Assembly (NCBI GenBank): GCA_030540535.1
Contig: JAUNWB010000007.1
Location: 1 to 13,127 of the forward strand
Direction of reading: 5' to 3'
Origin: Elusimicrobiales bacterium
Lineage (GTDB): Bacteria > Elusimicrobiota > Elusimicrobia > Elusimicrobiales > Elusimicrobiaceae
DNA: 13,127 nt
This document shows positions 1-13,127 of the stretch, piece after piece (the stretch's first letter is position 1; each line of letters starts with the position of its first letter). The position numbers were made by a program, and so were the translations under genes. A model generated the notes under the pieces. The model had not been told where the DNA came from and searched no databases. It worked only from the letters and a program-made list of their open reading frames with translations.

Positions 1-263
1 CCCTTGACCATCTGAAAGAGCGGTTTCTGGACGGAAACATCATCCACAACCGGAACGCCATGTTTACCTGGTATCTGGGCAACGTGAAAATGACAAAACG
101 GGGCCCCAACGCCACCTATCTGCCCACAAAGCAGAATCGATACCGAAAAATTGACGGATTCGCGGCGCTGCTGGATGCTCACACGGAGTATCTGCGAAAG
201 AATCCGACCTTTATCCCAAAGGACAAGAAGCTGACCACGGTGCTGCGAATGAGGAAGGAGTGA
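1..263 (+). CDS. terL: Terminase large subunit, C-terminal end (partial)
   Basis: This is the last 86 codons of a gene that begins before the window, read from position 3 to a TGA at 261-263. The translated end carries HNRNAMFTWYLGN and then KIDGFAALLDAH. The second motif matches the end of the phage terminase nuclease domain, where an acidic residue (here the Asp codon at 153-155) contributes to the metal-binding site. In the family this protein is the ATP-driven motor that moves DNA into the prohead and cuts it at the end of packaging. The ATPase domain lies outside the window and cannot be checked. Position directly before the portal gene is standard. An ATG at 60 is internal to the same frame and is not a likely start. 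Confidence 0.87.
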   Translation, partial: LDHLKERFLDGNIIHNRNAMFTWYLGNVKMTKRGPNATYLPTKQNRYRKIDGFAALLDAHTEYLRKNPTFIPKDKKLTTVLRMRKE

Positions 264-267
264 TTGC

Positions 268-1548
268 ATGGGCATTTCCGATGCCTGGAAGAGCTGGAGG
301 AGAGAACGGATCATCAAGGCCGCCATTGCCCAGGGCTTGACGGTGCCCAGCAAACGGGACATCCGGAGGGGGCGGATTTTGCACTGGATGCGGGGAGATT
401 ACACCCTGCACAACAGCGAGCTGCTGTTTTCCGCCGTTTCCAGAATCTCCAACGCCCTATCCTCCATGCCGGTGCAGCTGTACAAGGGTGCTTCCCCGGT
501 GACGGATGACCTGAACGACCTGGTCGCCTTTCAGCCGAACCCCAACATGAGTGCCAGCACGTTCTTTAAGTCCATGGAGGCCTGCCGGTGCACCAGCGGG
601 AACGCCTACGCCATGAAGGTATTCGGCCCCCGGGGAAATCTGGAGCGGCTGGAGATACTCGACCCTAGCCGGGTGACCCCAATCCTGGAGCGGGACAGCG
701 GGGAGCTGTGGTACCGGATCACGCCGGAGCAGGAAAGCTCCTACTATGTCCACGGCTACTACATGATCCACATCCCGTTCATCTCCACCAACGGCTATTC
801 CGGCGTGAATCCGGTTTCCGTTTTACAGGAGACCATGGACTACGCAGCCAACATCCAAAGCTTCAGCGTGAAGCAGCTGGAGCAGGGCGTGAATGCGGCC
901 ATTGTGCTGGAGGCCCCGGCGAATCTGGGCAAGAACCAGAAAGATGAGATGGTCGAGGAATTTATGAGCACCTACCGGGAGACCAGCGGAAACATTCTGC
1001 TGATGGAATCCGGAGTGACGGCGAAAACGCTGAACCTCTCTCCTGTTGACAGCAAGCTTTTTGAGGTGGAGAAGATCACCCGGAGCAAGGTGGCCATGGT
1101 GTACAACCTGCCGCCCCATCTGCTGGGAGACTACTCCGACACCAGCTTTACCAGCCAGGAGCAGCAGATGCTGGAATTTCTGATGCTCACCATGCTGCCC
1201 ATTGTGACCGCCTATGAGCAGGAGCTGGACAGGAAGCTTTTGACCGGGAGGCAGCGCCGGAGGGGGCTCCATTTCAAATTCGATATGGAGGCCATTCTGC
1301 GGGCGGACGCGGCCACCCAGGCGGAGGTGGACTACAAAGCGGTGCGCTCCGGCTGGAAAACACCGGATGAGATTCGCTACAACCGGCATCTGCCCCCATT
1401 CCCCGGCGGCATCGGGTCCAAGGCGCTGGTTTCTCAGGATTTGGCCACGCTGGAATACACCGTACTGCAAAAGCCCGCCGTGCTGGCAAGGCAGCCATTG
1501 CCGGGGGCGGAAACCGGAGGGAAGGAGGAAGAAAATGGAACGGATTGA
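268..1548 (+). CDS. Phage portal protein, HK97 family
   Basis: The 426-residue product is of usual length for HK97-type portals. In this family a dodecameric ring at one head vertex nucleates the head, docks terminase and later holds the tail. Typical blocks appear in order: PNPNMSASTF near residue 90, the GNAYAMK block near 111 followed by an ILDPSRV stretch, GYSGVNPVSVL near 176, and a conserved C-terminal helix region with NLPPHLLGD near 281 and TSQEQQMLEFL near 297. The start is the ATG at 268, preceded by AGGAAGGAG, which overlaps the end of the terminase gene; a TTG at 264 in another frame is a shadow. The last 14 bases overlap the protease gene, which suggests translational coupling. 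Confidence 0.95.
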   Translation: MGISDAWKSWRRERIIKAAIAQGLTVPSKRDIRRGRILHWMRGDYTLHNSELLFSAVSRISNALSSMPVQLYKGASPVTDDLNDLVAFQPNPNMSASTFFKSMEACRCTSGNAYAMKVFGPRGNLERLEILDPSRVTPILERDSGELWYRITPEQESSYYVHGYYMIHIPFISTNGYSGVNPVSVLQETMDYAANIQSFSVKQLEQGVNAAIVLEAPANLGKNQKDEMVEEFMSTYRETSGNILLMESGVTAKTLNLSPVDSKLFEVEKITRSKVAMVYNLPPHLLGDYSDTSFTSQEQQMLEFLMLTMLPIVTAYEQELDRKLLTGRQRRRGLHFKFDMEAILRADAATQAEVDYKAVRSGWKTPDEIRYNRHLPPFPGGIGSKALVSQDLATLEYTVLQKPAVLARQPLPGAETGGKEEENGTD

Positions 1549-2326
1549 CAAATTCAAGGCATTTTCCGTGAAAAAAGCGGATGCACAGAGCGACATCGCA
1601 CTGATTAACCGGTATTCCCTGCGGGAGCTTACTCCGGAGGAGGTTTACTGCTTCTCGGTTGTCCTGTGCGACAACGAGGTAGACCGGGACTGTGAGCGCA
1701 TCACGGAGAAAGCGCTTGGAACGCTTGCGGCGCTGTTTGTGGGAAAGACCGGAATCACGGATCACCGCTGGACGGCGGAGAACCAGATTGCCCGGCTTTA
1801 CCGGGTGGAGGTGGAGGATACCGCCGAAAAAAACCAGCTGGGGCTCCCCCTGAAGCGGCTCCGGGGCAGCGCCTACATGATAAAAAATGAGGAGAACCAG
1901 CCCATGATCGATGCCATCGACGGCGGCATCCTGAAGGAGGTTTCCGTGGGCTTTGCCTGCGGCGCGGTGCTCTGCTCCTGCTGCGGGAAGCCCTTGAGGC
2001 GGAACTGGGACACCTGGAAGATGCAGTGCGAGACCGGGCACATCCAGGGAGAATCCTACGATGGGAAGCTGTGCTGCGGAGAGCTGGACGATCCGAAGGA
2101 CGCTTATGAGTTTTCCTTTGTGGCGGTTCCTGCACAAAGGGGCGCGGGGGTGACAAAAGCCTTTGAGGACATCAACGGCGCCTTTGACATCCTGATGGAG
2201 AGCGATCTGCGGCAGCATGGGCGGAGAATCGAGGCGCTGATGCCCAGGCTCCGCCGGGCGCTGGCAGAGGAAAAGGAGCTGGCGCAGCGGGCTGAGATCG
2301 CCAAGCAGGCGCAGAAATACCGGTAA
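1535..2326 (+). CDS. HK97-type prohead protease with Cys/His-rich insertion
   Basis: The product is 263 residues starting at ATG 1535, which has AAGGAGGA six bases upstream; the open frame continues further up but only inside the portal gene. The role would be to mature the prohead by cleaving the capsid N-terminal scaffold region. The evidence is context (between portal and capsid) plus the two blocks expected of HK97-type proteases: a His in GITDHRW (H77) and a Ser in LKEVSVGF (S137), candidate catalytic residues, followed by EFSFVAVPA near 192-200. Between the Ser block and the VPA block lies an insertion with C147-x2-C150, C165-x3-H169 and C180/C181, arranged like a small zinc-binding knuckle. 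The C-terminal 35 residues are charged and helical. Family assignment is by motif and position; metal binding is inferred. Confidence 0.8.
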   Translation: MERIDKFKAFSVKKADAQSDIALINRYSLRELTPEEVYCFSVVLCDNEVDRDCERITEKALGTLAALFVGKTGITDHRWTAENQIARLYRVEVEDTAEKNQLGLPLKRLRGSAYMIKNEENQPMIDAIDGGILKEVSVGFACGAVLCSCCGKPLRRNWDTWKMQCETGHIQGESYDGKLCCGELDDPKDAYEFSFVAVPAQRGAGVTKAFEDINGAFDILMESDLRQHGRRIEALMPRLRRALAEEKELAQRAEIAKQAQKYR

Positions 2327-2337
2327 CAAAAGGTCAC

Positions 2338-2379
2338 CACCTCAGCCCTGCGGGAGCTCTCCTGAGCAGGGCTGAGGTG
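2338..2379 (+). promoter_or_regulatory. Perfect 14-bp hairpin upstream of the capsid gene
   Basis: CACCTCAGCCCTGC at 2338-2351 is exactly complementary to GCAGGGCTGAGGTG at 2366-2379, with a 14-base loop between. It fills most of the 84-base gap between protease and capsid genes. There is no T-run directly after the stem (TTTTT comes only at 2392-2396, just before the capsid ribosome binding site), so it is not a canonical intrinsic terminator. It could be a weak or partial terminator, an RNase processing site, or a 5' stabiliser of the capsid mRNA; the sequence alone does not choose. Confidence 0.75.
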
Positions 2380-2410
2380 AAGGATACAAAATTTTTATGG
2401 AGGTACACAC

Positions 2411-3598
2411 ATGACACTGTTCGAAATGAAGGAAAAGCTCTATACCATCCAGCAGGAGCGGAAGAGCGTGGCGGACTGGCTGGCGGAGAAGGCCACCGAC
2501 CCCAGCATCGCCATGGACGCCATCAACGAGAAGCAGAAGCGGCTGGAGGAGCTGAACCAGCGCATCGGCATCATGGAGAAGGCGGTGGCCGATGAGGAAG
2601 CCGCCCAGAAAGCGAAGCTGGCGGCCCAGATGGGCGGCGGCCCCGGCACCGGCATGAGCGAAAAGGATGCGATGACCCACAAAAAGGCGGCGTTCTACCG
2701 GGCGGTGCTTACCGGCGGCGACGTGAAAAAGGCCTATGAGGGCCTGGGCGCCATCCCCGCCGGAAATGCTGACCTGGGCAGCGGCGATCATCTGTTGCCC
2801 AAGAATGTGGCGGCGGAGCTGCTCACCGAGCCGCTGGATGAAAACAGCCTGCGCCGGGTGGAACCCGTGAGCAACATCACCGGCCTGGAGGAACACAAGC
2901 TGCTGTTTACCATCGACGATGACGACCTGGCGGATGTCACCGACCAGGAAACCGCCAAGGAAATCGAGATGAACGGCGACACTATCGCCTATGGCAGGTG
3001 CAAGACCAAAATTTTCTGCACCATCAAGGACACGGTGCTGCATGGGTCTGACCATGACCTCGTGAGCGCTGTTGAAAATGCCCTGCGCTCCGGTCTGGCT
3101 GTGAAGGAGAAGATGCGGGCCTTTGCCCCTGCCTCCGGCGGCGGTGCCTATGATGCGGCCCACAAGCATATGAGCTTCTACGAGCAGGATGACAGCGGGA
3201 ATACCCTGATTAAGACCGTGGAGCGCAGCAACATCATCGACGCCATCATTGACGCCTGGGCAGACCTTCCGGACATGTTCTCCGGAAACGCATCCGTTAT
3301 CATGCGGAAAACTGACTACTACGCTGCCATCCGGGAGCTGAACGGGGCCAACAACGACCTGTTCGGCAAAAAGCCGGAGGATGTGCTGGGAATCCCCGTG
3401 ATTTTCAACGACCGTGCTGTGACCCCCGTGGTGGGTGATTTCCGGTACTCCAAGCAGAATTATGACATCAACACCACATTTGAGACCGACAAGGACGGCA
3501 AGAAGGGCGAATACTACTTCATCCTGACAGCCTGGGGCGACCACCGGATCAAGCTGCACAGCGCCTTCCGGCTGGCCAAGGTGAAAGCCGGCGAATAA
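2411..3598 (+). CDS. Major capsid protein, HK97 fold
   Basis: The 395-residue product starts at ATG 2411 with GGAGG at 2399-2403. Residues 1 to about 75 are charged and helical, rich in Lys, Glu and Gln, like the coiled-coil delta (scaffold) domain that the protease removes in HK97-type heads. A Gly-rich linker follows at about 75-82. The mature shell domain probably starts between roughly 85 and 115 and includes the block GDHLLPKNVAAELL near 126-139, which matches the usual beginning of the shell domain. The C-terminal half has the expected pattern ending in HRIKLHSAFRLAKVKA. The exact cleavage site is not visible. Placement after the protease and before the connector genes is standard. This should be among the most abundantly made proteins of the phage. 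Confidence 0.93.
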   Translation: MTLFEMKEKLYTIQQERKSVADWLAEKATDPSIAMDAINEKQKRLEELNQRIGIMEKAVADEEAAQKAKLAAQMGGGPGTGMSEKDAMTHKKAAFYRAVLTGGDVKKAYEGLGAIPAGNADLGSGDHLLPKNVAAELLTEPLDENSLRRVEPVSNITGLEEHKLLFTIDDDDLADVTDQETAKEIEMNGDTIAYGRCKTKIFCTIKDTVLHGSDHDLVSAVENALRSGLAVKEKMRAFAPASGGGAYDAAHKHMSFYEQDDSGNTLIKTVERSNIIDAIIDAWADLPDMFSGNASVIMRKTDYYAAIRELNGANNDLFGKKPEDVLGIPVIFNDRAVTPVVGDFRYSKQNYDINTTFETDKDGKKGEYYFILTAWGDHRIKLHSAFRLAKVKAGE

Positions 3599-3624
3599 GC
3601 CCAACCTTTACCGGAGGTTTGACA

Positions 3625-3930
3625 ATGGCCGTAACTGCGAAAGACCTGGCAGAATATCTGAATAGTCCCCCGGACAACGAGGAATGCCTGGAGCAATACC
3701 TGGCCATGGCGAAATCCAAGGCAAGGTCGGCGGGAATCCCGGATTACAAGCACAACGCCAGCTATGACGGCTTTCTGCTGGCCCTGGCGGCCATGTACTA
3801 TGACAACCGGGGGATGCGATACGCCGGAAGCTACCAGGATTCCGCGGAACGTGTCTCCAGCAATATGATAAACGCCTATGTGCTGGAGCTGCGGTACGCG
3901 GGGGAAGACCCCATGGAGGAAACGCCGTGA
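3625..3930 (+). CDS. Head-tail connector protein, gp6-like
   Basis: The 101-residue product is compact and mostly helical, with the pattern seen in gp6-like adaptors: an N-terminal helix (AKDLAEYLNSP), a middle segment YDGFLLALAAMYYDNRG, and a C-terminal helix that includes the block SNMINAYVLELRY. In the family these form a ring beneath the portal to which the next connector binds. ATG 3625 is chosen because GGAGG at 3613-3617 sits seven bases upstream; an in-frame TTG at 3619 is too close to that site. The end overlaps the next gene (GTG 3927, TGA 3928). The identification rests on size, helix pattern and order, so it is good but not certain. Confidence 0.75.
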   Translation: MAVTAKDLAEYLNSPPDNEECLEQYLAMAKSKARSAGIPDYKHNASYDGFLLALAAMYYDNRGMRYAGSYQDSAERVSSNMINAYVLELRYAGEDPMEETP

Positions 3931-4277
3931 GCAAGGAAGTCAACGCCGGGGAGCTGCGGACAAGCGTGTGCTTTGTCCACAACGAGAAAAACACCGACGG
4001 GGAAGGCGTGACCACCTTCAGCGAAGTGGACATATTCGGCTGCCCCATCCGCTGCAAGTGGGTAAACGCCCACGGAACGGAGATTTTTGCCGCCATGCAG
4101 CAGAGCATCCAGGAGCCGGCCACCATCACCTGCCGGTACTCTCCCCGAATCCAAAAGGATCAGCTGGTTTATAAAGCCGGAGACCCAACGCCCTATGAAA
4201 TCATCAGCATGGACAATGTGGAAGAAAAAAGCCGTTGGCTGGAGATCAAGGTGAAGCGGAGGGGGGCGGCGAGATGA
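3927..4277 (+). CDS. Head-tail adaptor / head closure protein
   Basis: The 116-residue product starts at GTG 3927, overlapping the stop of the preceding gene as GTGA, with GGAGG about nine bases upstream. It looks like a small beta-barrel: it opens with NAGELRTSVCF, a start typical of SPP1 gp16-like closure proteins, then a segment around GCPIRCKWVNAHGTEIF, and ends with GDPTPYEIISMDNVEEKSRWLEI, the usual 'express the coordinate, then re-evaluate' strand pattern near the C terminus of these proteins. In the family it closes the portal channel after packaging and receives the tail. Only the size, strand pattern and gene order support this; no catalytic motif is expected. Confidence 0.7.
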   Translation: MSKEVNAGELRTSVCFVHNEKNTDGEGVTTFSEVDIFGCPIRCKWVNAHGTEIFAAMQQSIQEPATITCRYSPRIQKDQLVYKAGDPTPYEIISMDNVEEKSRWLEIKVKRRGAAR

Positions 4278-4600
4278 CTTTGGAAAATAGAATCGTTGCG
4301 GCGCTCTCCACCCTCGGGCTCCCGGTGTCCCAGGGGCCATATCTGGAAGATCGGGACAAATATCTTTGCTACTATGTGTCCCGATCTGGGACAAACTGGG
4401 CGGACGACGGGCCGGGTGCTGAGGTTTGCCGGGTGCAGGTGCATTTGTTTGCCCCGGTGACCGAAAATATCAACGCCCTTGTCCGTCTGGCTCAGAATGC
4501 CCTGTATGCGGCGGATTTCGGGTGGCCGGAGGCGGTGGACGCGACGGACAAGGACGGGCGGCACATCGTTCTGGAAACCACATGGCTGGAGGCGCTTTAG
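4274..4600 (+). CDS. Small tail-completion protein, possibly tail terminator
   Basis: The 108-residue product starts at ATG 4274, overlapping the previous stop as ATGA, with GGAGG at 4258-4262. It begins with a helix (TLENRIVAALSTLGLPV), then beta-strands (YYVSRSG, CRVQVHLFAP), then a second helix (NINALVRLAQNALYAA) and a final strand ending LETTWLEA. This alpha/beta layout of about 100-130 residues with paired helix and strand is what tail terminator proteins (gpU/gp17-like) show, which cap the tail tube and join it to the head. In many related phages this gene comes after the gp10-like gene; here it comes before, so the assignment of the pair could be reversed. Confidence 0.55.
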   Translation: MTLENRIVAALSTLGLPVSQGPYLEDRDKYLCYYVSRSGTNWADDGPGAEVCRVQVHLFAPVTENINALVRLAQNALYAADFGWPEAVDATDKDGRHIVLETTWLEAL

Positions 4601-4601
4601 A

Positions 4602-5018
4602 ATGGCTGTCTTTTCCACATCCGGAATTGACCGATACGCCCTGAGCCTGGAGGAGCTGGAGAATATCCCGGGCGGCGTCATTGAGGAAATGGTGCTCTCT
4701 GAAGGCGAAGTGATCCGAAAAGGCCAGGCGGAGGAAGCCGCCGCCATGCTCCAGGGCCCCTATTACGCCGGAGACGTGGCAAAGGGCGCAGCCCTGGGCA
4801 AGCCGAAGAAAACGGCGGACGGAAAATGTGTGTTTGTCAGCTTCAAGGGCACGGCACACGGAAACCGGGTGGCGGAAATCGCCTTTATCAACGAGTTCGG
4901 CAAGAAAAACCAGCCGCCCCGCCCCTTTATCTCCACGGCCAATGAAAAACACGCCGAAGCGGCGGTGGAGGCGGCGGCAAAGGTGTACGATGAATACCTG
5001 AAGAAAAACAACCTATAG
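4602..5018 (+). CDS. HK97 gp10-like head-tail joining protein
   Basis: The 138-residue product starts at ATG 4602, one base after the preceding stop, with GGAGG inside the end of that gene; the open frame upstream to 4479 only shadows it. The middle and C-terminal region carries an INEFGKKNQPPRPFI block (near residues 98-112) followed by a helical AEAAVEAAAKVYDEYL tail. A G-x-x-x-x-P-x-R-P-F-I block followed by a long helix is the signature of the HK97 gp10-like family of minor head-tail proteins, which act at the neck. Identification is therefore from a motif as well as position. An ordinary length and composition give no sign of damage. Confidence 0.78.
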   Translation: MAVFSTSGIDRYALSLEELENIPGGVIEEMVLSEGEVIRKGQAEEAAAMLQGPYYAGDVAKGAALGKPKKTADGKCVFVSFKGTAHGNRVAEIAFINEFGKKNQPPRPFISTANEKHAEAAVEAAAKVYDEYLKKNNL

Positions 5019-5033
5019 AAAGGACGATGAAAA

Positions 5034-5567
5034 ATGGCAGGATTTGGCGCAAACTACCCCTGTTTCAAGGCAAAGGAAAAGAGCAGCGGCGTGGTTCTGG
5101 GCAAGCTGATTGCCGCAGACCTGACCGTGAATCTGGCCTCCGGCGAGGTGTACGCAGATGACTCCCTGGCGGAGCAGCTGAGCGAATTTGCCTCCGGCTC
5201 CATCGCCATGGAGACCGACGACCTGGAGGACAGCGCTGCCCAGGAGGTTTACGGCTGCAAGGTTTCCGAGAAGGAGGTCACCTACAACAAGGATGATACT
5301 CCTCCCATGGGCGCGCTGGCCTACTACAAGCGGATCATGCGGGGCGGCGTCAAGCAGTACAAGGGCTACTACTACCCCAGCGTGCGGGCGGCTCTGGGCA
5401 ATGACAGCGCAAAGACCCGGGGCAGCAGCATCACCTTCACCACCACCAGCACCACCTTTACCGTGTTCGCCGACGAAAACGGCGACTGGCGGAAAACCAT
5501 CATCTGTGACACGGTGGAAGAGGTGAAGGAATGGATTAACACCAAGTGTGCCATCACCACCTCCTAA
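5034..5567 (+). CDS. Major tail protein (tail tube)
   Basis: The 177-residue product starts at ATG 5034 with AAAGGAC about nine bases upstream. It has the features of siphovirus tube proteins: a beta-rich sequence, a block ADLTVNLASGEVYADD near residues 30-45 (family pattern: strands that carry the tube's inner and outer sheets, with a SGEVYADD turn), a segment around GALAYYKRIMRGGVKQYKGYYYP near the middle, and Thr/Ser-rich strands close to the C terminus. It lacks any extra Ig-like domain at the end. Position between the joining genes and the chaperone pair is standard. Hexameric rings of this protein would stack around the tape measure. A 9-bp hairpin follows 24 bases after its stop. Confidence 0.85.
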   Translation: MAGFGANYPCFKAKEKSSGVVLGKLIAADLTVNLASGEVYADDSLAEQLSEFASGSIAMETDDLEDSAAQEVYGCKVSEKEVTYNKDDTPPMGALAYYKRIMRGGVKQYKGYYYPSVRAALGNDSAKTRGSSITFTTTSTTFTVFADENGDWRKTIICDTVEEVKEWINTKCAITTS

Positions 5568-5591
5568 GCGCCCCGGGGTATAAACTGATGA

Positions 5592-5614
5592 CCCCCAGGG
5601 GAGCACCCTGGGGG
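5592..5614 (+). terminator. 9-bp hairpin after the tail tube gene, possible partial terminator
   Basis: CCCCCAGGG at 5592-5600 pairs perfectly with CCCTGGGGG at 5606-5614 around the five-base loop GAGCA. Only CTTTGCG follows, so the T-tract is weak and readthrough into the chaperone genes is expected. An alternative weaker fold is possible: GGGGT at 5575-5579 can pair with ACCCC at 5591-5595, which would compete with this stem. A partial terminator or mRNA 3' end protecting the highly expressed tube transcript is my best reading. Confidence 0.5.
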
Positions 5615-5634
5615 CTTTGCGTATGGAGATACAC

Positions 5635-6066
5635 ATGGACAGAATGTTAAAAGCAACGTTCCATCAAAAAACCGTTTATTTCTGCTACACCATCAGCGTG
5701 CTGTTTGATGCGGTGGATAAATTCGGGACTGTGCAGCTTGCCCTGGATATGCTCCAGAGCGACGGGAAGGACGCCTACGACGCGGTGCAGTGGTTTGCCG
5801 CCCGGCTTTCCCAGGAGGGCGCGGCCTGCCGGAAGGAAATGGGCTATGAATGCCCCGAAATCCTGACAGAGGGGGACGTTAGCCTGCGGATGCCGCCGGT
5901 GGAGTTTTCAAACCTCCGGGAGGCAGTGGTGGAGGCCGTGAGCCTGGGCTACCGGCGGGAGCTTCCCGGGGATGAAAACCAGGAGCGGGATCTGGGACTG
6001 GAGGAGCTGAATGAAAAAAAAGAAAAGGCCGGGGAATCAGGGCAGAGTACAACTACGCGGCGGTGA
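5635..6066 (+). CDS. Tail assembly chaperone (upstream, G-type product)
   Basis: The zero-frame product has 143 residues. ATG 5635 is preceded by GGAG (5625-5628), which favours it over an in-frame ATG at 5623. The N-terminal half is globular (TFHQKTVYFCYTISVLFDAV) and the end is charged and disordered-looking, as in the G part of lambda-like G/GT tail chaperones. These proteins bind the tape measure and major tail protein during tail assembly and are not in the virion. Position between tube protein and tape measure fits. Codons 127-129 lie in a run of eight A residues (6014-6021) where a -1 slip would join the second-frame extension at 6021-6182. Without the slip, translation ends 14 codons later at TGA 6064. 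Confidence 0.8.
   Translation: MDRMLKATFHQKTVYFCYTISVLFDAVDKFGTVQLALDMLQSDGKDAYDAVQWFAARLSQEGAACRKEMGYECPEILTEGDVSLRMPPVEFSNLREAVVEAVSLGYRRELPGDENQERDLGLEELNEKKEKAGESGQSTTTRR
6014..6021 (+). promoter_or_regulatory. Slippery run A8 for programmed -1 frameshift
   Basis: Eight consecutive A residues are placed so that zero-frame codons AAA AAA occupy 6016-6021, giving the heptamer A-AAA-AAA at 6015-6021. A -1 slip re-pairs both codons exactly. The next zero-frame codon is GAA. This is a normal slippery site for tail chaperone genes. The GC-rich part of a downstream stem begins at 6027, five bases after the site, which is the usual spacer length. Confidence 0.8.
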
Positions 6067-6122
6067 CAATCCTGCGATTGTCCCGGAGGGAATTTTACCG
6101 CATGAACCCCGGCCTTTTCTTT
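6019..6122 (+). promoter_or_regulatory. 16-bp long-range stem with nested hairpin at frameshift site
   Basis: AAAGAAAAGGCCGGGG at 6019-6034 is exactly complementary to CCCCGGCCTTTTCTTT at 6107-6122. The GC core GGCCGGGG/CCCCGGCC (6027-6034 with 6107-6114) starts five bases after the slippery heptamer. Inside the 72-base enclosed region a second perfect stem is present: GACAATC at 6065-6071 with GATTGTC at 6076-6082, loop CTGC. The zero-frame stop codon (6064-6066) is inside this structure. A frameshift-stimulating RNA is the most economical reading. The right arm also looks like a terminator end (GC then TTTTCTTT), which is the main alternative. Confidence 0.65.
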
Positions 6123-6182
6123 GATATGATGCAGCTGCACGGAAAAACCACGCGTCCGAACAAGGAAGCGGATATTGACTAA
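6021..6182 (+). CDS. Second-frame (T) extension of tail chaperone by -1 frameshift
   Basis: Read in the -1 frame from position 6021, translation stays open for 53 codons to TAA 6180-6182. It gives a peptide containing NYAAVTILRLSRREFYRMN and then PGLFFDMMQLHG, which resembles the conserved T-domain block of G/GT-type tail chaperones (an LRLSRxEFYRM-P-G-x-F-x-D pattern). It has no usable start codon near its own beginning, so expression requires the frameshift; the fused product would have 182 residues. It stops nine bases before the next ATG (6192), and its stop codon overlaps the ribosome binding site AAGGAG of that gene, which is normal spacing for a real gene end. Made at a lower level than the G product, it would recruit the tail tube protein to tape measure. 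Confidence 0.85.
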   Translation, partial: RKGRGIRAEYNYAAVTILRLSRREFYRMNPGLFFDMMQLHGKTTRPNKEADID

Positions 6183-6191
6183 GGAGACAAA

Positions 6192-6521
6192 ATGGAATTA
6201 CAGATTTTTGAGTTCAAGGAATATGAGGTGCCCATTGAAATCGGCTGGCACCGGTTTTATCTGGACTGCTCCGCGGACACCGGCGACTATCTGCGAAAAA
6301 GCGCCCAGGCGCTGAAGGAGCTGGCCGGGCAGATGGAAGCGGGGGAAAGGACCATCCAGGACGCCATTGGCTTTGGCTGCAACATGCTGGATGACCTGCT
6401 GGGCGAGGGTGCCAGCGAAAAGATTTTTGAGCAGCGGAAAAAGCGGCTTTCCGACATCATCGACATCTGCAACTGGCTGATGGACATTGCCGTGAAATTC
6501 CGGAAAGAGCGGGGACGGTGA
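6192..6521 (+). CDS. Small tail-module protein of uncertain role
   Basis: The 109-residue product starts at ATG 6192, with AAGGAG (6181-6186) five bases upstream. It has a short beta-like start (LQIFEFKEYEVPIEIG), then predicted helices with a block LLGEGASEKIFEQRKKRLSDI near residues 69-89 and a hydrophobic helix end. I have a general memory of small proteins with a GEGASEKIF-type block next to tape measure genes in Firmicute phages, likely assembly-related, but cannot name the family with confidence. Its place between chaperone and tape measure suggests a role in tail assembly. It is coupled neither by overlap nor by shared frame with its neighbours (35-base gap to the tape measure start). 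No signal peptide, membrane segment or catalytic motif is visible. Confidence 0.6.
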   Translation: MELQIFEFKEYEVPIEIGWHRFYLDCSADTGDYLRKSAQALKELAGQMEAGERTIQDAIGFGCNMLDDLLGEGASEKIFEQRKKRLSDIIDICNWLMDIAVKFRKERGR

Positions 6522-6556
6522 GCATCTCCGGGCAAAACCGGGAAAGGAGGTAAAGA

Positions 6557-9500
6557 ATGGCCACAAGAGTGATCTCCACCAAGCTGGCAATCGAAGGTGA
6601 AAACAGCTACCGGCAGTCCATCAGCAGGATCAACGGCGAAATCAAGGCGCTGAAATCCGCCCTGGCCCTGACGGAGAGCCAGTTCCAGACCAACGCCAAC
6701 TCCATGCGGGCATTGGAGGAAAAGGGGAAGGCCCTGGCAAGCCTCTATGAAGCCCAGAAGAGCAAGGTGGATTCCCTGAAGGCGGCGCTGGAGAACGCCA
6801 AGGCGGCGGAGGAACGCTACCGGCAGGAAAAGGAGAAGCTCACCGAGAAGCTCCGCGCCAACAACGACGCCCTGGAGCGGCTGAAAAACACCGAGGGCGA
6901 CACCTCCCAGCAGGAAAAGGAGCTGGCCGCCGAAAACAAAAAGCTCACCGACCAGCTGGAGGCCTGCGACGGGAAGCTGGCGGCGGCGGAAAAGGGCGCT
7001 GCGGCCTGGAAAAACCAGTTAAACAACGCGGAAATTCAGCTGAATGACCTGGATGCGCAAATCAAGCGAAACAACGGTTATCTGGATGAGGCGAAGCGCA
7101 GCGCCGACGGGTGCGCCACCTCCATTGACCAATTCGGAGACCGGGTGGAGGGCGCGGCGAAAAGCTCCGATACGCTGACCCAGGCACTGACCGCCGCCGG
7201 GGTGATTGCGGCGCTGAAGAAAACGGCGGAGATGTTTGAAAGCTGCGCGGGGAGCAGCATTGAATTTGAATCCGCCATGGCCGGGGTGGCGAAAACCACC
7301 GACCTGAGCAAAGCAGAGCTGGAAGCCATGGGGCAAAACATCCAGGCGCTGTCCCACCGGATTCCCGCCTCCACCACGGAGATCGCGGCGGTGGTGGAGG
7401 CTGCCGGGCAGCTGGGCATCGCAAAGGAAGACCTGCTGAGCTTTTCCGAGGTGATGCTGATGCTGGGAACCTCCACCAACCTTTCCAGCGAGGAGGCAGC
7501 CAGCGCCCTGGCGAAATTTGCCAACGTGGTGAACATGAGCCCGGAGAACTACAGCCGGCTGGGCTCCACCATCGTGGATTTGGGTAACAATTTCGCCACC
7601 ACGGAGGCGGACATCACATCCATGGCCGCACGGCTGGCCTCCTCCGGTACGATTGTGGGCCTGGCGGAGCCCCAGATTATGGCCATTTCCACGGCGCTTT
7701 CCTCCGTGGGCATCGAGGCGGAGGCGGGCGGCGGCTCTATTTCCAAGCTGCTCAGAGAATTTGACGTCATGGTGGCCACCGGGGATGAGAAGCTGGAGGG
7801 CTTTGCGAAAATTGCCGGGATGACGGCGGAGCAGTTCCGGACTGCCTGGGGGCAGGACGCTGTGAGGGCCCTGGGCGCCTTTATCGACGGCCTGGAAGAG
7901 GTCGAACGGGGCGGCGGAAGCGCGGCGGCGGTGCTGGAAGCGCTTGGGATAACCGAAATCCGGATGAGCAATGCGGTGCTGGCCCTGTCTACCTCCGACG
8001 GGATTCTGCAAAAGGCGCTGGACACGGCGGAAACGGCCTGGGAAGCGGACACGGCGCTGCAGACTGAGGCGAACACCCGCTACGCCACCACGGAAAGCAA
8101 ACTGCAAATGCTATCCAACAAGGCGGAGACGCTGAAGACCGCCTTTGGGGACAAGCTGAACCCGGTGGTAAATGATTTTATCGATATGGCCGGGGATGTG
8201 CTGGAGTGGGCCACCAATATGGTGGAAAAAAGCGACACCCTGGCACCGCTGCTTTTCAGCTGCGCCACGGGGATGGGCCTGTTTGTGACGGCGGTTGGGG
8301 GATATAACCTGATTGGAAAGCTGGCCAATACGCTGCTTTCCGGGCTTGCGGCAGCCGCAAGCGGGAACCCCTTCTTTTTGGCCGCTGCCGGGGTTGCGGC
8401 GCTGGCTGGGGCGGTGGCGCTGTTCATCGACGCGACGAAGGGCGAGAACCCGGCCCAGACGCTGGACAGTCTGACCGAGGCCGCGCAGAATTTACCAACA
8501 GCCATCAGCGACGCGGAGAAAAACTTTAAGGACACGGCAAGCAACATTGAATCCGCCGTTATCGCCGTTGACAACTACTGCAAACGCCTGAAGGAGCTGG
8601 AGAGCCAGGGAGAACTGACAAAGGTTGACCAACTGGAATATGCGTACATCCTCGGAAGAATCCAGGAGCTGATGCCGGGAATCAACGCGCAGATTGACGA
8701 ACAGACCGGCTTGCTTATTGACGGAGCGGACGCCCTGCGCCAACAGGCGGACGCCTGGAAATACAAGGCGCTTCAGGAGGCGCTGGCTGCAAGATACAGC
8801 GCAGAAATAGCGGCAAAGGATCAGGCCCAGCTTGAGGTGATCGAAAACCAGTGGAAGCTTAGACAGGCAGAAAATGAAGGAAACGACCTGCTCTCCAAAA
8901 GAGCCGAGGTTGAAAACAAACTGGCCGAAGCTCAGGAGAAGCTTGCAAGCGTTCCCTTCGCGTCCGACGAATATTACGCAGCAAACAACGCCGTTTCGGA
9001 TTTATCCTATGAGCTTTCTCGGCTTCAAGGTCAAATTTGGGAAAACGAAGACACCCAGAATTTGCTCAACGAAGCGATTTCGGCTGGAGAAGCCACGGTT
9101 AGTGAATATGAACAGACAATCCGCAATGCAGAAGATGCGCTGAATGCCTATGTAGAGGAATCGAGAGATTCTCAGTCCGCTTCCGAAAATTTCGCCTCCG
9201 GGATGGCACAAAATCAGGAGGCCATCAGCGCCGTTACGGACAAGCTGAAGGAGCTGGCGGAAAGCTACAAGGCTGCTTATGACGCTGCCTACGAGAGCAT
9301 CAGCGGGCAGATCGGGCTTTTTGACCAATTCCAGGACGCCAACGAGGAAACCAACTACTCCGCCGAAAAAATGGTGGAGATTTGGAACCAGCAGGCCAGG
9401 AGCCTGGAGGCCTACACCGAAAACCTGAGAAAGGCAAAGGAATTCGGCCTGGATCCGCGGTTGATTGAGAGCTTATCCGACGGTACGGCGGAAAGCGCGA

Positions 9501-10660
9501 AGCACATTGCGACCATCGTCGGGGAAATTGAAAATGCGGGCGGCTCCGCCGGGGAGCTTACTAAATCCGCCGAAAATTTCATCAATACCTTTAACGCGGC
9601 CTATGGCCAGACCGAGGATGCGAAAACCGGATTTGCGGCCACCGTCGCATCCATCCAGACGGACTTAAAAAACAGCCTGACGGGGTTGGAGCAGGAGGCA
9701 TCCGACGCCGGGCTCTCCGGCTTTGCGGAGGCGTGGAAAAAGGCCCTGGAGGATGCCGGGGTGGACTTCCAGCAAGTTGGCTCTGATGCCGCCGCAGGGC
9801 TTGTGAAGGGCATGAAAGATTCCGAGCAGGATGTCACCGACGCCGGAAAGGAAATGGGCCAGGCGCTTACAGACGGCAACAAGGCGCAGCTGGAGGTAAA
9901 CAGTCCTTCCAAGGTTTTTGAGCGGATCGGCGGAAACTGCGGCGATGGGCTTTCCATCGGGCTGCGGGGGAAAATCGAGGGCATCAAGGAGGCGGCGAAA
10001 TCCATCGGGGCGCAGCTTTCGGAGCAGATGGCGGCCTCCGCCCGTCAGGCGGCGGACGCTTACGAGGAAAGCATGAAGGCCGTCACGGAAAAAACGAGGA
10101 GCATCCTCGCCACCCTCTCCACCACCGCCGCTGCTGGGGCATCTGATTTCCCGGCCCGAATGCGGGGCATCGGAGAAAATGCCATCGATGGCATGACCGC
10201 TGGAATGCGGAATCGTTCCTCCCAGCTGTATGCCACCATCCGCAGCATCGTGGAGAACTCGATCACTGTGGCGAAAAACGCCGCCGACGTGCACTCTCCC
10301 TCCGGGAAGACCCGGGAAATCTTTGAGTATGTGGGCGATGGCATGATCCTGGGGTTGGAAGACCGGAGGAAAAAGCTTGCGGACACCGTACAGGACGTTG
10401 TGAATCAGGCCCTTGCCTTTGAAGCAAACGGAAGGGTGCTGGAGCTGGCCGCCGGGATTGACGCCCGGATGCCGGAGCTGGTTCCGGTCTATGGGAAAAT
10501 GAATGCCTACGGGGAAACCGCCCCGGTAAGAAACACGGTGACGGTGAACCTGAGCATTGACCGCTTTGAGAACAACTCCGACCGGGACTTGGATTCCATC
10601 ACCGAGTACATCGAGGAGCGGATCCAGACGAACTTCATGAAAAAGGAGGCGGCGGTTTGA
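6557..10660 (+). CDS. Tail tape measure protein, TP901-type core
   Basis: The 1367-residue product starts at ATG 6557 with a very strong site, AAAGGAGGT, five bases upstream. It sets tail length and leaves with DNA at ejection. Layout: residues 20-190 are coiled-coil (Glu/Lys/Ala/Leu rich); about 205-560 form the TP901-type core, with the block SIEFESAMAGVAKTTDLS near 232-249; about 565-627 hold hydrophobic helices (GLFVTAVGGY, AAAGVAALAGAVALFI) suited to membrane interaction; 630-1090 are helical linkers; the C-terminal part has repeated blocks around NSPSKVFERIG (near 1114) and HSPSGKTREIFEYVG (near 1245), typical of TMP ends. Codons 755-874 or so are unusually low in GC and use AGA Arg and CTT Leu, unlike the flanks. 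The last four bases overlap the Dit gene. Confidence 0.95.
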   Translation: MATRVISTKLAIEGENSYRQSISRINGEIKALKSALALTESQFQTNANSMRALEEKGKALASLYEAQKSKVDSLKAALENAKAAEERYRQEKEKLTEKLRANNDALERLKNTEGDTSQQEKELAAENKKLTDQLEACDGKLAAAEKGAAAWKNQLNNAEIQLNDLDAQIKRNNGYLDEAKRSADGCATSIDQFGDRVEGAAKSSDTLTQALTAAGVIAALKKTAEMFESCAGSSIEFESAMAGVAKTTDLSKAELEAMGQNIQALSHRIPASTTEIAAVVEAAGQLGIAKEDLLSFSEVMLMLGTSTNLSSEEAASALAKFANVVNMSPENYSRLGSTIVDLGNNFATTEADITSMAARLASSGTIVGLAEPQIMAISTALSSVGIEAEAGGGSISKLLREFDVMVATGDEKLEGFAKIAGMTAEQFRTAWGQDAVRALGAFIDGLEEVERGGGSAAAVLEALGITEIRMSNAVLALSTSDGILQKALDTAETAWEADTALQTEANTRYATTESKLQMLSNKAETLKTAFGDKLNPVVNDFIDMAGDVLEWATNMVEKSDTLAPLLFSCATGMGLFVTAVGGYNLIGKLANTLLSGLAAAASGNPFFLAAAGVAALAGAVALFIDATKGENPAQTLDSLTEAAQNLPTAISDAEKNFKDTASNIESAVIAVDNYCKRLKELESQGELTKVDQLEYAYILGRIQELMPGINAQIDEQTGLLIDGADALRQQADAWKYKALQEALAARYSAEIAAKDQAQLEVIENQWKLRQAENEGNDLLSKRAEVENKLAEAQEKLASVPFASDEYYAANNAVSDLSYELSRLQGQIWENEDTQNLLNEAISAGEATVSEYEQTIRNAEDALNAYVEESRDSQSASENFASGMAQNQEAISAVTDKLKELAESYKAAYDAAYESISGQIGLFDQFQDANEETNYSAEKMVEIWNQQARSLEAYTENLRKAKEFGLDPRLIESLSDGTAESAKHIATIVGEIENAGGSAGELTKSAENFINTFNAAYGQTEDAKTGFAATVASIQTDLKNSLTGLEQEASDAGLSGFAEAWKKALEDAGVDFQQVGSDAAAGLVKGMKDSEQDVTDAGKEMGQALTDGNKAQLEVNSPSKVFERIGGNCGDGLSIGLRGKIEGIKEAAKSIGAQLSEQMAASARQAADAYEESMKAVTEKTRSILATLSTTAAAGASDFPARMRGIGENAIDGMTAGMRNRSSQLYATIRSIVENSITVAKNAADVHSPSGKTREIFEYVGDGMILGLEDRRKKLADTVQDVVNQALAFEANGRVLELAAGIDARMPELVPVYGKMNAYGETAPVRNTVTVNLSIDRFENNSDRDLDSITEYIEERIQTNFMKKEAAV
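10642..10659 (+). promoter_or_regulatory. Ribosome binding site deciding a TTG start for Dit
   Basis: AAGGAGG at 10642-10648 sits eight bases before TTG at 10657, which overlaps the tape measure stop as TTGA. No ATG, GTG or other good start follows until deep within the distal tail protein, whose N-terminal residues are conserved in character. The TTG is therefore the start, and translation is coupled to the tape measure gene. Confidence 0.75.
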
Positions 10661-11373
10661 ATTTCTTTGTGTTTGACGGAAAAAGTTCCCTGGACTTCGG
10701 CCTTTACGTGGAGCACTACCCAATCCAATACGGGGCGAAGCGGAAAATCGAGGAAATATCCATTCCAGGCAGAAACGGCTCGCTGCACTTTGACGAAGGC
10801 GCTTTTGAAGACTGCACGCAAATCTATGAATGCGCCTTTGTTGACCCCGACGCAACGGCCTACACCACCCACGCCGTGCGGGAGTGGCTGTGTGTGCCGG
10901 GAAAGCGGAAACGCCTGGAGGACAGCTACGACCCGGAGCATTTTCGCCTTGCCCGGTTCCTGGGCCCGCTGGATGTGGAAAACAAGCTGGGCCGAATCGG
11001 AAAATGCAAGGTAAAATTCCAATGCGACCCCAGGTGCTTTTTGAAAAATGTGGACAGCCCCATTGGCTTTTCCGGGAGCGGAACCATCCGGAACCACTGG
11101 TTTGACGCTGCTCCCCTGATCCTTGTTTCCGGTACCGGAGGGGGAAGCCTGACCATTGGGGAAACCACGGTGGAGCTGCTGGAAATCGGCGGGGCGCTGG
11201 CCATTGACTGCGAAACCATGGACGCCTACCGAGAAGAGGGCGGAGGCCGGGAAAACGCCAATGCGGACATCCGGGCGGAGAGATTCCCGATCCTGAAAAA
11301 TGGGGATAACGCCATTTCCTTTTCCGGGGGCGTTACGGAAATCCAAATCATTCCGAGGTGGTGGGAATTATGA
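10657..11373 (+). CDS. Distal tail protein (Dit)
   Basis: The 238-residue product is of usual length for short Dit proteins, which form the hexameric hub linking tail tube to tail tip. The N-terminal half has the family mark: EISIPGRNGSLHFDEGAFED near residues 33-52 (consensus I-x-x-P-G-R-x-G), then strands with CAFVDP and RLARFLGPLDVEN. The C-terminal half is a galectin-like beta domain ending NAISFSGGVTEIQIIPRWWEL, where the F-x-G-G-V...P-R-W pattern is common in the family. The TTG start is supported by the upstream AAGGAGG. The gene overlaps the tape measure stop and its own stop overlaps the following ATG (ATGA at 11370). Only one internal Met (near residue 189) is seen, so no alternative start is available. 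Confidence 0.9.
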   Translation: MNFFVFDGKSSLDFGLYVEHYPIQYGAKRKIEEISIPGRNGSLHFDEGAFEDCTQIYECAFVDPDATAYTTHAVREWLCVPGKRKRLEDSYDPEHFRLARFLGPLDVENKLGRIGKCKVKFQCDPRCFLKNVDSPIGFSGSGTIRNHWFDAAPLILVSGTGGGSLTIGETTVELLEIGGALAIDCETMDAYREEGGGRENANADIRAERFPILKNGDNAISFSGGVTEIQIIPRWWEL

Positions 11374-13127
11374 TACCGATGCTTTTTGAGGCCGATGAAA
11401 CAAGCTTCCAATCCAACGGCCTGGGCGCTCTGACGGACACGGTGAGCTGCTTTATTGACCAGGAAATCAACGGCGGCTTTGAACTGGAAATGCGCTACAG
11501 CGCGGAGGGCATTCATTTTGAGCTCCTCAGGAAAAACAGAATCATCCTGGCGGAAACTGGCAGCGCGGGCCAGCCGCAGCCCTTCCGGATTTACCGGATT
11601 TCCAAGGAAATCGGCGGTACTGTCATGGTTTACGCCCGGCATATCTGCTACGACCTGATGGGAATTCCGGTGGCTCCCTTTTCTGCGGAAAACGCAAGGG
11701 AGGCCATGGGGAAGATCCGGGAGAACGCCGTCGTGCCCTGCCCCTTTGAACTGGCGGCGGAAATTGACGCCGAGGGGAGCATGGAGGCAGCAGACCCGAA
11801 GGACGCCTGGACGCTGATTGGAAAGAGCGGAATCCTGAGCGCATACACTGGCGAACTGGAATTTAACCGTTTTTCCGTGAAGCTGAAGGATCACCTGGGA
11901 GAAAATCGGGGCGCTGCGCTCCGCTATGGGAAAAACCTGTACGCCTTCGGGCAGGACGAAAACTGCGGGGATGTATTCACCGGGATATTCCCCTACTGGA
12001 AAAGCAAGGACGGGGCCCTCACCACGCTGCCGGAAAAGACGGTGAGTGCGGCGGGAAGCTTCGACCATGTGAAAATCAAGAGCGTGGATTTTTCCGCCTA
12101 CTTTGACAGCGCCCCGACGGCGGAGCAGCTGCGGGAAAAGGCCGCCGACTACGTCCAGAAAAACGGGATTGGGATTCCGGAGGTTTCCATCACCCTGGGC
12201 TATGTGCAGCTGAGCCGAACCATGGAATATCCCGATGCCCTGCCGGAGAAAATCACCCTTGGGGACGCTGTGACGGTTGTCTTTGAAAAAATGCTGGTGA
12301 CGACCACGGCCAGGGTCATCAAAACCAGGTACAACGTGCTTTCCGGGCGGCACGAGAGCGTGTCCATTGGGAAGGTGAAGCGGACGATCTCCGACACAAT
12401 ATCCAAGCAAAGCAAGGGTTCCGGAATCCTGTCGGGCCGCGTTTCTTCGTCTGAAAAAAAGATAGAGGATGTGGATAAAAAGGCGGACGGAATCCGGATG
12501 GCCACAAATCAGTGCATTGCGGACATTGGGGATGTGACGGCGGGGCTGTATTCCATCGCCACGGCGGACGACATCAAGGGGTTGAAGGAAGCAAACACGA
12601 CCCTTTTTGCGAAGACAGAAGAGGAATATGCCGGGCTCGAGCTCCATGTGCAGGACAATGATGAAGAAATTGAAGGGCTCAAGGAATCCTCTGCCAAGCT
12701 GGAGACCCGGGTATCCGGGGCGGAGACGGCGCTGGAGATGGTATCGCGAGACGTGGGCGATCTGCAGGAGGCTTCGGCGGAAATTTCGGCCCGAGTGGAT
12801 TTGGCGGAGGAATCGATCGAAGGAAAAGCGGGCAAGCAGGAGCTGCAGGCTGGGTTGTCCACCAAGGTTAGTAATAAGGATTTGACCGACAAGCTGAAAA
12901 ACTATGCCCTCGCATCTGCCCTGGGTGATTATCTGACCGTCAACTCTGCGGCGGAGATGTATGTGACATCCGATGGGGTTACGTCGATTATCGGCAACTA
13001 TATCGTTACGGATAAGGACGGCACCAAAAAAAGCCTGGCGCAGATTCTGGCGGATCAAGTATCGGTGATGTCAAAGGTCAATAACACAACGTCCGGCCTT
13101 GACACCAAGGTCAGCAACACGGATTTG
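11370..13127 (+). CDS. Tail endopeptidase / tail-associated protein (Tal-like), partial
   Basis: The frame is open from ATG 11370 through 13127, 586 codons with no stop, so the protein continues past the window. The start overlaps the Dit stop as ATGA, with GAGGTGG upstream. Residues 1 to about 345 resemble the prophage tail endopeptidase/Tal N-terminal region: EADETSFQSNGLGALTD, IDQEINGGFELEMRY near 30-44, FRIYRISKEIGG near 72-83 followed by YARHICYDLMG, and later DALPEKITLGDAVTV and RHESVSIGK. These domains form the central tail-tip trimer in relatives. From residue ~350 on the sequence is helical and coiled-coil-like (SEKKIEDVDKKADG, DEEIEGLKES), then becomes Thr/Val/Ser-rich with a repeated LxTKVSNxDL motif. 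No peptidase active-site motif is seen in the part present, so lytic activity is not established here. Confidence 0.88.
   Translation, partial: MIPMLFEADETSFQSNGLGALTDTVSCFIDQEINGGFELEMRYSAEGIHFELLRKNRIILAETGSAGQPQPFRIYRISKEIGGTVMVYARHICYDLMGIPVAPFSAENAREAMGKIRENAVVPCPFELAAEIDAEGSMEAADPKDAWTLIGKSGILSAYTGELEFNRFSVKLKDHLGENRGAALRYGKNLYAFGQDENCGDVFTGIFPYWKSKDGALTTLPEKTVSAAGSFDHVKIKSVDFSAYFDSAPTAEQLREKAADYVQKNGIGIPEVSITLGYVQLSRTMEYPDALPEKITLGDAVTVVFEKMLVTTTARVIKTRYNVLSGRHESVSIGKVKRTISDTISKQSKGSGILSGRVSSSEKKIEDVDKKADGIRMATNQCIADIGDVTAGLYSIATADDIKGLKEANTTLFAKTEEEYAGLELHVQDNDEEIEGLKESSAKLETRVSGAETALEMVSRDVGDLQEASAEISARVDLAEESIEGKAGKQELQAGLSTKVSNKDLTDKLKNYALASALGDYLTVNSAAEMYVTSDGVTSIIGNYIVTDKDGTKKSLAQILADQVSVMSKVNNTTSGLDTKVSNTDL
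12855..12884 (+). repeat. LxTKVSNxDL repeat, copy 1
   Basis: The codons at 12855-12884 encode LSTKVSNKDL, matching LDTKVSNTDL at 13098-13127 in 8 of 10 residues. At DNA level 22 of 30 bases match, and the V, S and N codons differ only at synonymous positions, so the likeness is at protein level. It lies in the coiled-coil part of the Tal-like protein. Confidence 0.7.
13098..13127 (+). repeat. LxTKVSNxDL repeat, copy 2
   Basis: The codons at 13098-13127 encode LDTKVSNTDL. The distance to the first copy is 243 bases (81 codons). It ends exactly at the window edge, so further copies downstream may exist but are not visible. Confidence 0.7.

Follow-up and report, generated by a model that had tools for sequence, protein, structure and literature searches.

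Why should a perfect 16-base-pair (bp) inverted repeat lie across the end of an open reading frame (ORF), directly on a run of adenines? We addressed this question in a stretch of 13,127 bases (the window; positions 1 to 13,127, forward strand, of contig JAUNWB010000007.1 in GenBank assembly GCA_030540535.1, Elusimicrobiales bacterium). Judging from sequence comparison, the repeat most likely belongs to a −1 frameshift stimulator for a G/GT-type tail chaperone, known in kind and new in architecture. Specifically, we assign a probability of about 0.86 to the view that a phage gene for a G/GT-type tail assembly chaperone carries a programmed −1 ribosomal frameshift cassette, stimulated by messenger RNA (mRNA) folded as a pseudoknot. 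The elements concerned are as follows.

5635-6066, + strand: G-like ORF, zero-frame product of 143 residues, between the major tail protein gene and an ORF in the tape-measure position
6000-6006, + strand: Shine-Dalgarno-like GGAGGAG upstream of the heptamer, a possible, weak auxiliary stimulator
6015-6021, + strand: slippery heptamer A_AAA_AAA, in the zero frame near the end of G
6064-6066: zero-frame stop TGA
6021-6182, + strand: T-like −1-frame extension, 53 residues and then TAA at 6180-6182
6019-6026, + strand: outer A/U arm, fully paired with 6115-6122 in the window; not conserved
6115-6122, + strand: partner of the outer A/U arm; not conserved
6027-6034, + strand: 5′ arm of stem P1, GGCCGGGG, 8 GC-rich pairs, 5 nucleotides (nt) past the heptamer
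6107-6114, + strand: 3′ arm of stem P1, CCCCGGCC, supported by pairing, codon null and synonymous conservation
6072-6078, + strand: 5′ strand of helix S2, within the P1 loop
6128-6134, + strand: 3′ strand of helix S2, 13 nt after the P1 3′ arm
6060-6064, + strand: 5′ strand of putative hairpin P2 as in relatives (weaker support), in a shifted register in the window fold
6083-6087, + strand: 3′ strand of putative hairpin P2, including the synonymously conserved Arg codon 6084-6086
6065-6082, + strand: window-specific extended hairpin (6065-6071 with 6076-6082), overlapping the S2 5′ strand

The repeat consists of AAAGAAAAGGCCGGGG at 6019-6034 and its exact reverse complement at 6107-6122, 72 nt apart. 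A preliminary description of the window had called it unlikely by chance, and it is indeed the sole perfect 16-bp repeat in the window whose arms lie no more than 200 nt apart; dinucleotide shuffles (n = 300) averaged 0.0033 such repeats, or about one per 300 shuffles. The same description was accurate in beginning the GC core after a 5-nt spacer (6022-6026), in placing the TGA stop between the arms and in its exact 7-bp inner hairpin, GACAATC/GATTGTC. At the site the zero frame reads GAA AAA AAA GAA AAG GCC. Folding of RNA 6000-6140, a check the description had proposed, gave −59 kcal/mol against −37.2 ± 3.75 for 200 shuffles (z score −5.8), none of which was as good.

Conservation was assessed in relatives. 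Searches with T returned 7, 17, 17 and 17 loci in viral contigs and 7 loci, 3 of the gene family, in species genomes; searches with G found no match at first and then 18 and 22 loci, many being contigs already found by T. The resulting set holds 21 distinct sites, the window and 20 relatives (L001, L002, L004, L005, L010, L011, L012, L020, L021, L022, L027, L028, L029, L030, L031, L033, L035, L042, L055 and L088). Sequences with no difference over the printed region entered the set once (L003 with L002; L006 and L007 with L005; L032 with L031; L089-L091 with L088), and L029 and L030, one base apart in the aligned part, were both retained. The window also has a 94% identical homologue, which represents 11 contigs. 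The alignments, of 113 and 123 columns, are gap-free. Over aligned parts the T extensions of the relatives show 42-73% identity, and in a tree of the 21 G-T proteins the end branches are long (median 0.29) and 9 of 18 inner branches open. A_AAA_AAA keeps to the G frame in all 18 sequences compared, and AAAAAAA stands at the same position in 21 of 21, so that an in-frame slippery heptamer near the end of G is found together with a conserved −1 ORF. The zero-frame stop lies 14-15 nt from the A run in 15 of 18 sequences, 42 nt from it in the window and L022, and 26 nt in L031.

In these alignments, helix conservation within the repeat is confined to its GC half, P1, with pairing far beyond what the codons require. 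Across 20 sequences 94.4% of P1 cells are paired, against 26-69% for slid versions, and four pairs carry changes on both sides, in 11 cells in all. Pairing, double-change cells and covariation score were each reached by 0 of 500 shuffles. The pair 6031/6110, for example, is G-C in 18 of the 20, A-U in L022 and C-G in L027, with matching Pro codons CCT and CCG; A-U also occurs at 6028/6113 in L020 and L028 and at 6027/6114 in 5 of the 20. The rows with P1 changes occupy several separate parts of the G-T tree. Under a codon null, in which amino acids were fixed and synonymous codons sampled according to the usage of each locus, 133.9 ± 3.3 of 168 pairs are expected in the 21 sequences and 157 are found (151 of 160 against 128.5 with 20 sequences); on 16 thinned sequences the codon nulls for P1, S2 and P2 go in the same direction as on 21. 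Read by eye, P1 is present in 18 of 20 single-sequence folds and absent from those of L028 and L031. Stimulatory structures are looked for 4-10 nt after the heptamer, starting with a G-C pair (PMC4066793), and P1 follows a 5-nt spacer and opens with G6027-C6114. P1 is thus kept by compensatory change, as is S2, described below, to a modest extent.

Co-variation of the repeat arms, raised in the preliminary description, is accordingly found in the GC half and stops there. In the outer A/U half 63.8% of cells are paired in relatives, compared with 63.3% in shuffled ones, and for the five outer pairs outside the heptamer the count, 65 of 105, practically matches the 65.2 that the codon null predicts. 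The outer A/U bases, comprising the heptamer end and the spacer, would be inside the ribosome when the heptamer fills its P and A sites. The whole 16-bp arm was rejected as a unit, conservation being limited to the GC half, and the A/U arm is most plausibly a peculiarity of the window sequence. What survives of the proposal that the repeat is a stimulatory RNA is its core: this part co-varies and is preserved more strictly than the codons demand, so that the best reading is an RNA that stimulates frameshifting in a tail-chaperone gene.

That the RNA would be larger than a simple hairpin also stands, owing to a crossing helix, S2, and not to the parts originally named. In a scan of every 6-8-bp helix (155 columns, 20 sequences), P1, S2 and overlapping registers rank first, and unrelated helices peak at 0.83. 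S2 is paired in 93.6% of cells over the 20 sequences, against 19-43% for slides. Its conservation is independent of codon choice: 137 of 147 pairs form in 21 sequences against a codon null of 111.5 ± 3.8, 131 of 140 against 106.0 ± 3.6 in 20, and 105 of 112 against 84.0 ± 3.3 in the 16 thinned sequences, and the helix is perfect in 12 of 20 where 1.4 would be expected. An optional extension (6079-6082/6123-6126) gives 60 of 84 against 50.7 ± 3.8 (P 0.008). Synonymous conservation was listed for 30 codons along T, and z exceeds 5 at six codons only: two in P1 (6108, 11.6; 6111, 6.2), three in S2 (6072, 8.0; 6075, 12.3; 6129, 16.1) and one in P2; the other 24 range from −1.3 to 2.8. L088, found after S2 had been proposed, has 6 of 7 S2 pairs and 6 of 8 P1 pairs. 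Since S2 crosses P1 in the alignment, the two would form a pseudoknot; the two crossing helices of the H type are present, with connecting stretches of 37, 28 and 13 nt. The RNAalifold consensus is without S2, as such folds cannot draw crossing helices, and an Rfam search gave no match at E 1.

Hairpin P2, whose loop holds the S2 5′ strand, is less certain in these alignments, with 70 of 105 pairs in the 21 sequences against a codon null of 49.2 ± 4.3. Its Arg codon at 6084-6086 is CGG in 15 of 20 sequences with Arg (synonymous z 12.7), and its pairing within P2 is provisional. The inner 7-bp hairpin, earlier put forward as a component of the structure, failed as a conserved element, with 40.7% of cells paired in 20 sequences. 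Its register has 60 of 147 pairs where the codon null gives 48.2 ± 4.6, a slight excess (P 0.008; P 0.095 with Watson-Crick pairs only), and so may have something in common with P2, although the 7-bp hairpin as such is not preserved. In the window fold a longer inner hairpin overlaps S2 and P1 is extended to 16 bp, and S2 has 6 of 7 pairs, with two G-U pairs and one A-A mismatch, at −5.0 kcal/mol where the consensus has −11.1. Upstream of the heptamer, Shine-Dalgarno-like sites occur in 10 of 20 sequences where 6.0 ± 1.8 are expected from codons (P 0.03), weakly above expectation, and we keep this site as an optional candidate stimulator.

With respect to mechanism, ribosomes would translate G and, at A_AAA_AAA, a fraction would re-pair one base back and enter the T frame, yielding a 182-residue G-T fusion beside the 143-residue G. 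The folded mRNA, beginning 5 nt after the heptamer, would form in the cell and stimulate the slip. Its 8 GC-rich P1 pairs would be placed at the mRNA entrance, P2 would form inside the 72-nt P1 loop, and S2 would join the P2 loop to the mRNA 3′ of P1, completing the pseudoknot. The fusion would then presumably serve in tail assembly. In the window itself S2 is weaker, and the internal hairpin and P1 are longer. We consider it an even bet that the family has a conserved three-helix pseudoknot, in which the inner-hairpin loop pairs 3′ of the closing stem, and that in the window's lineage S2 decayed while the inner hairpin and closing stem grew, a natural exchange of pseudoknot for long hairpin at a homologous site. 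That this change is a functional swap of S2 for a longer hairpin is a guess.

Several observations weigh against this account. The sequences are related, so letter and codon nulls overstate significance. The remaining two of five P1 measures were reached by 9 and 73 of 500 shuffles, and P1 itself is largely lost in L031 (4 of 8 pairs), reduced to 6 of 8 in L088 and to 7 of 8 in L012, L020, L028, L029 and L030. Shuffles reached four of the five S2 measures (0, 2, 7, 38 and 2 times in 500), double changes amount to three cells from L031 and L055 only, 9 of the 21 S2 helices (those of the window and of eight relatives) fall short of perfect pairing, and S2 is energetically weak in the window, L021, L022, L028, L031 and L042. 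An 8-pair version of P2 pairs no better than letter shuffles. G has no plausible family match in Pfam or NCBIfam, and its predicted fold has none in the PDB at E 0.001; the chaperone name is therefore drawn from gene order, from the layout of the frameshift and from a match to a PHROG 'tail protein' family.

The strongest competing explanation, which we nonetheless regard as unlikely, is that a plain long hairpin (P1 alone or with the window's inner hairpin) is the stimulator, S2 being a by-product of the preferred codons CTG CAC and GTG CAG. Its consensus codons are common in many GC-rich genomes, and the nine imperfect S2 helices would be readily understood on these terms. The excess of S2 over the per-locus codon-usage null is wide, however, most neighbouring codons lack comparable synonymous conservation, and S2 pairs are kept through changes on both sides in L031 and L055. 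Much less probable is transcriptional slippage on the A8 run with an incidental RNA fold. Runs of 8-9 A are present in 14 of the 21 sequences, but the other 7 have only A7, and A_AAA_AAA stays in frame while the extra A's vary. Moreover, the co-varying stem 5 nt downstream would presumably have no role in slippage, because the downstream RNA is unmade while the polymerase is on the run. Still harder to credit is a repeat produced by two-frame protein constraint and chance with no RNA role: the arms do lie within conserved motifs, AG in the zero frame and MNPGL in the −1 frame, but the codon nulls, co-variation and synonymous conservation speak against it. Least credible is a transcription terminator or attenuator made of the GC stem followed by TTTTCTTT. 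In the window UUUUCUUU does come after the 3′ arm, but many relatives have a broken U-tract or none, the loop spans 72 nt, and the ORF in the tape-measure position is still to come downstream. No short-loop GC hairpin directly followed by a conserved U-tract (as in an intrinsic terminator) was found, and a terminator scan reported no terminator-like site, its loops being limited to 3-8 nt so that it could not report the P1 stem.

Returning to the proposed frameshift cassette, its surroundings are those of a head-tail phage module. The window encodes, in order, a portal, major head protein, head-tail adaptor, head closure, tail terminator and major tail protein, followed by the G-like gene, a small ORF, the tape-measure-position ORF and a distal tail protein. 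The flanking genes are placed as follows.

5034-5567: major tail protein gene, adjoining the G-like ORF upstream
6557-10660: 1367-residue ORF in the tape-measure position, named from its position and the Castelnaud gene order, without a family search

G accordingly lies between the major tail protein and tape-measure positions, as a G/GT tail assembly chaperone gene does. The annotation of phage Castelnaud has the same gene order, with a G protein 36% identical to that of L021, and 15 of 17 members of the G family match phrog_2115, 'tail protein'. The small ORF (6192-6521), between T and the tape-measure-position ORF, shows weak likeness to phrog_4450 and phrog_1061. By eye, a start resembling that of the small ORF follows T in L004, L022, L031 and L042; in several other relatives the next start after T instead looks like the one of the window's long ORF (MATRTIST).

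T has no match among annotated phages, and in genomes of the window's order, class and phylum (149, 235 and 340; overlapping sets) only the window's own genome matched. Samples around the relatives' genomes gave 3 of 400, 3 of 400 and 2 of 394 matches, starting genome included, the rest weak and distant. Three named relatives sit in assemblies called Oscillospiraceae, and because the order, class and phylum samples held no other match, the window contig may be a stray phage in its 408-contig assembly. A letters-only pattern (heptamer and stem) found 15 stretches in viral contigs, 14 of them on gene-family contigs; the remaining one, in L062, lies in another gene and was dropped. Also dropped were L013-L016, which have only a 14-residue stretch in common with T, L013 being another protein. 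L039, with a distant T, has the −1 arrangement, and P1 and S2 were not seen there by eye; no usable site was obtained from L040.

Among known systems, phage lambda gpG/gpGT resembles the present locus in its position close to the tape measure gene, in shifting to −1 late in G and in adding a T extension (PMC5009743). The window differs in following its heptamer with a co-varying fold, and no common sequence family was shown. Lambda G-T frameshifting gives a 30:1 product ratio, and an HK97-like chaperone cluster shows 6-7% frameshifting (PMC5009743, PMC4066793, PMC3711429, PMC10885494). In certain tailed phages, a 2016 review relates, frameshifting seemingly proceeds without stimulators (PMC5009743). 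The −1 stimulators of insertion sequences (IS) include the branched hairpin of IS911 and the pseudoknots of IS3 and IS3411 types, and A_AA.A_AA.A is a common IS motif (PMC5009743, PMC4066793). They share with the window an A-rich heptamer, a structure 4-10 nt later with a G-C pair, and a branched hairpin or pseudoknot; the gene and fold are different, the window's crossing helix joining a loop inside P1 to mRNA 3′ of P1. Escherichia coli dnaX combines A_AAA_AAG with an upstream Shine-Dalgarno-like site and a downstream stem-loop (PMC5009743, PMC3711429), and the window likewise has a slippery A heptamer, a stem and an upstream GGAGG. In contrast, the window's heptamer is A_AAA_AAA, shifting gives the longer product, and the Shine-Dalgarno-like site occurs in only half of the sequences.

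A distant parallel is provided by Ruminococcus NatCom phages (L076 and L078), in which a 'Tail protein' gene weakly similar to G carries A_AAA_AAC, a −1 extension and, a few nt later, a stem AGTCGGG.../...CCCGACT; L079 has a similar site. Unlike the window's, this structure is by eye a simple hairpin, and the P1/S2 layout was not seen. The site begins at about 1854 in L076 and L078 and is on the reverse strand in L079. The records of L076 and L078 annotate no frameshift there, and by eye the pairs flanking the stem seem to change together.

Among the matches listed in a literature search, whose coverage left most subscription journals outside, no title concerned a conserved pseudoknot at a tail-chaperone frameshift site. 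The significance of the locus is that a phage family keeps a folded RNA by compensatory change despite G proteins of relatives only 31-45% identical to the window's; such conservation amid G divergence makes the chaperone ratio testable site by site. Homologous sites with strong or weak S2, together with a distant group apparently using a plain hairpin, offer a natural series in which to set pseudoknot stimulators beside hairpin ones. Elsewhere in the window, a perfect 14-bp inverted repeat, CACCTCAGCCCTGC, at 2338-2351 and 2366-2379 with a 14-nt gap, precedes the major head protein gene (2411) and is a candidate terminator, processing site or regulator.
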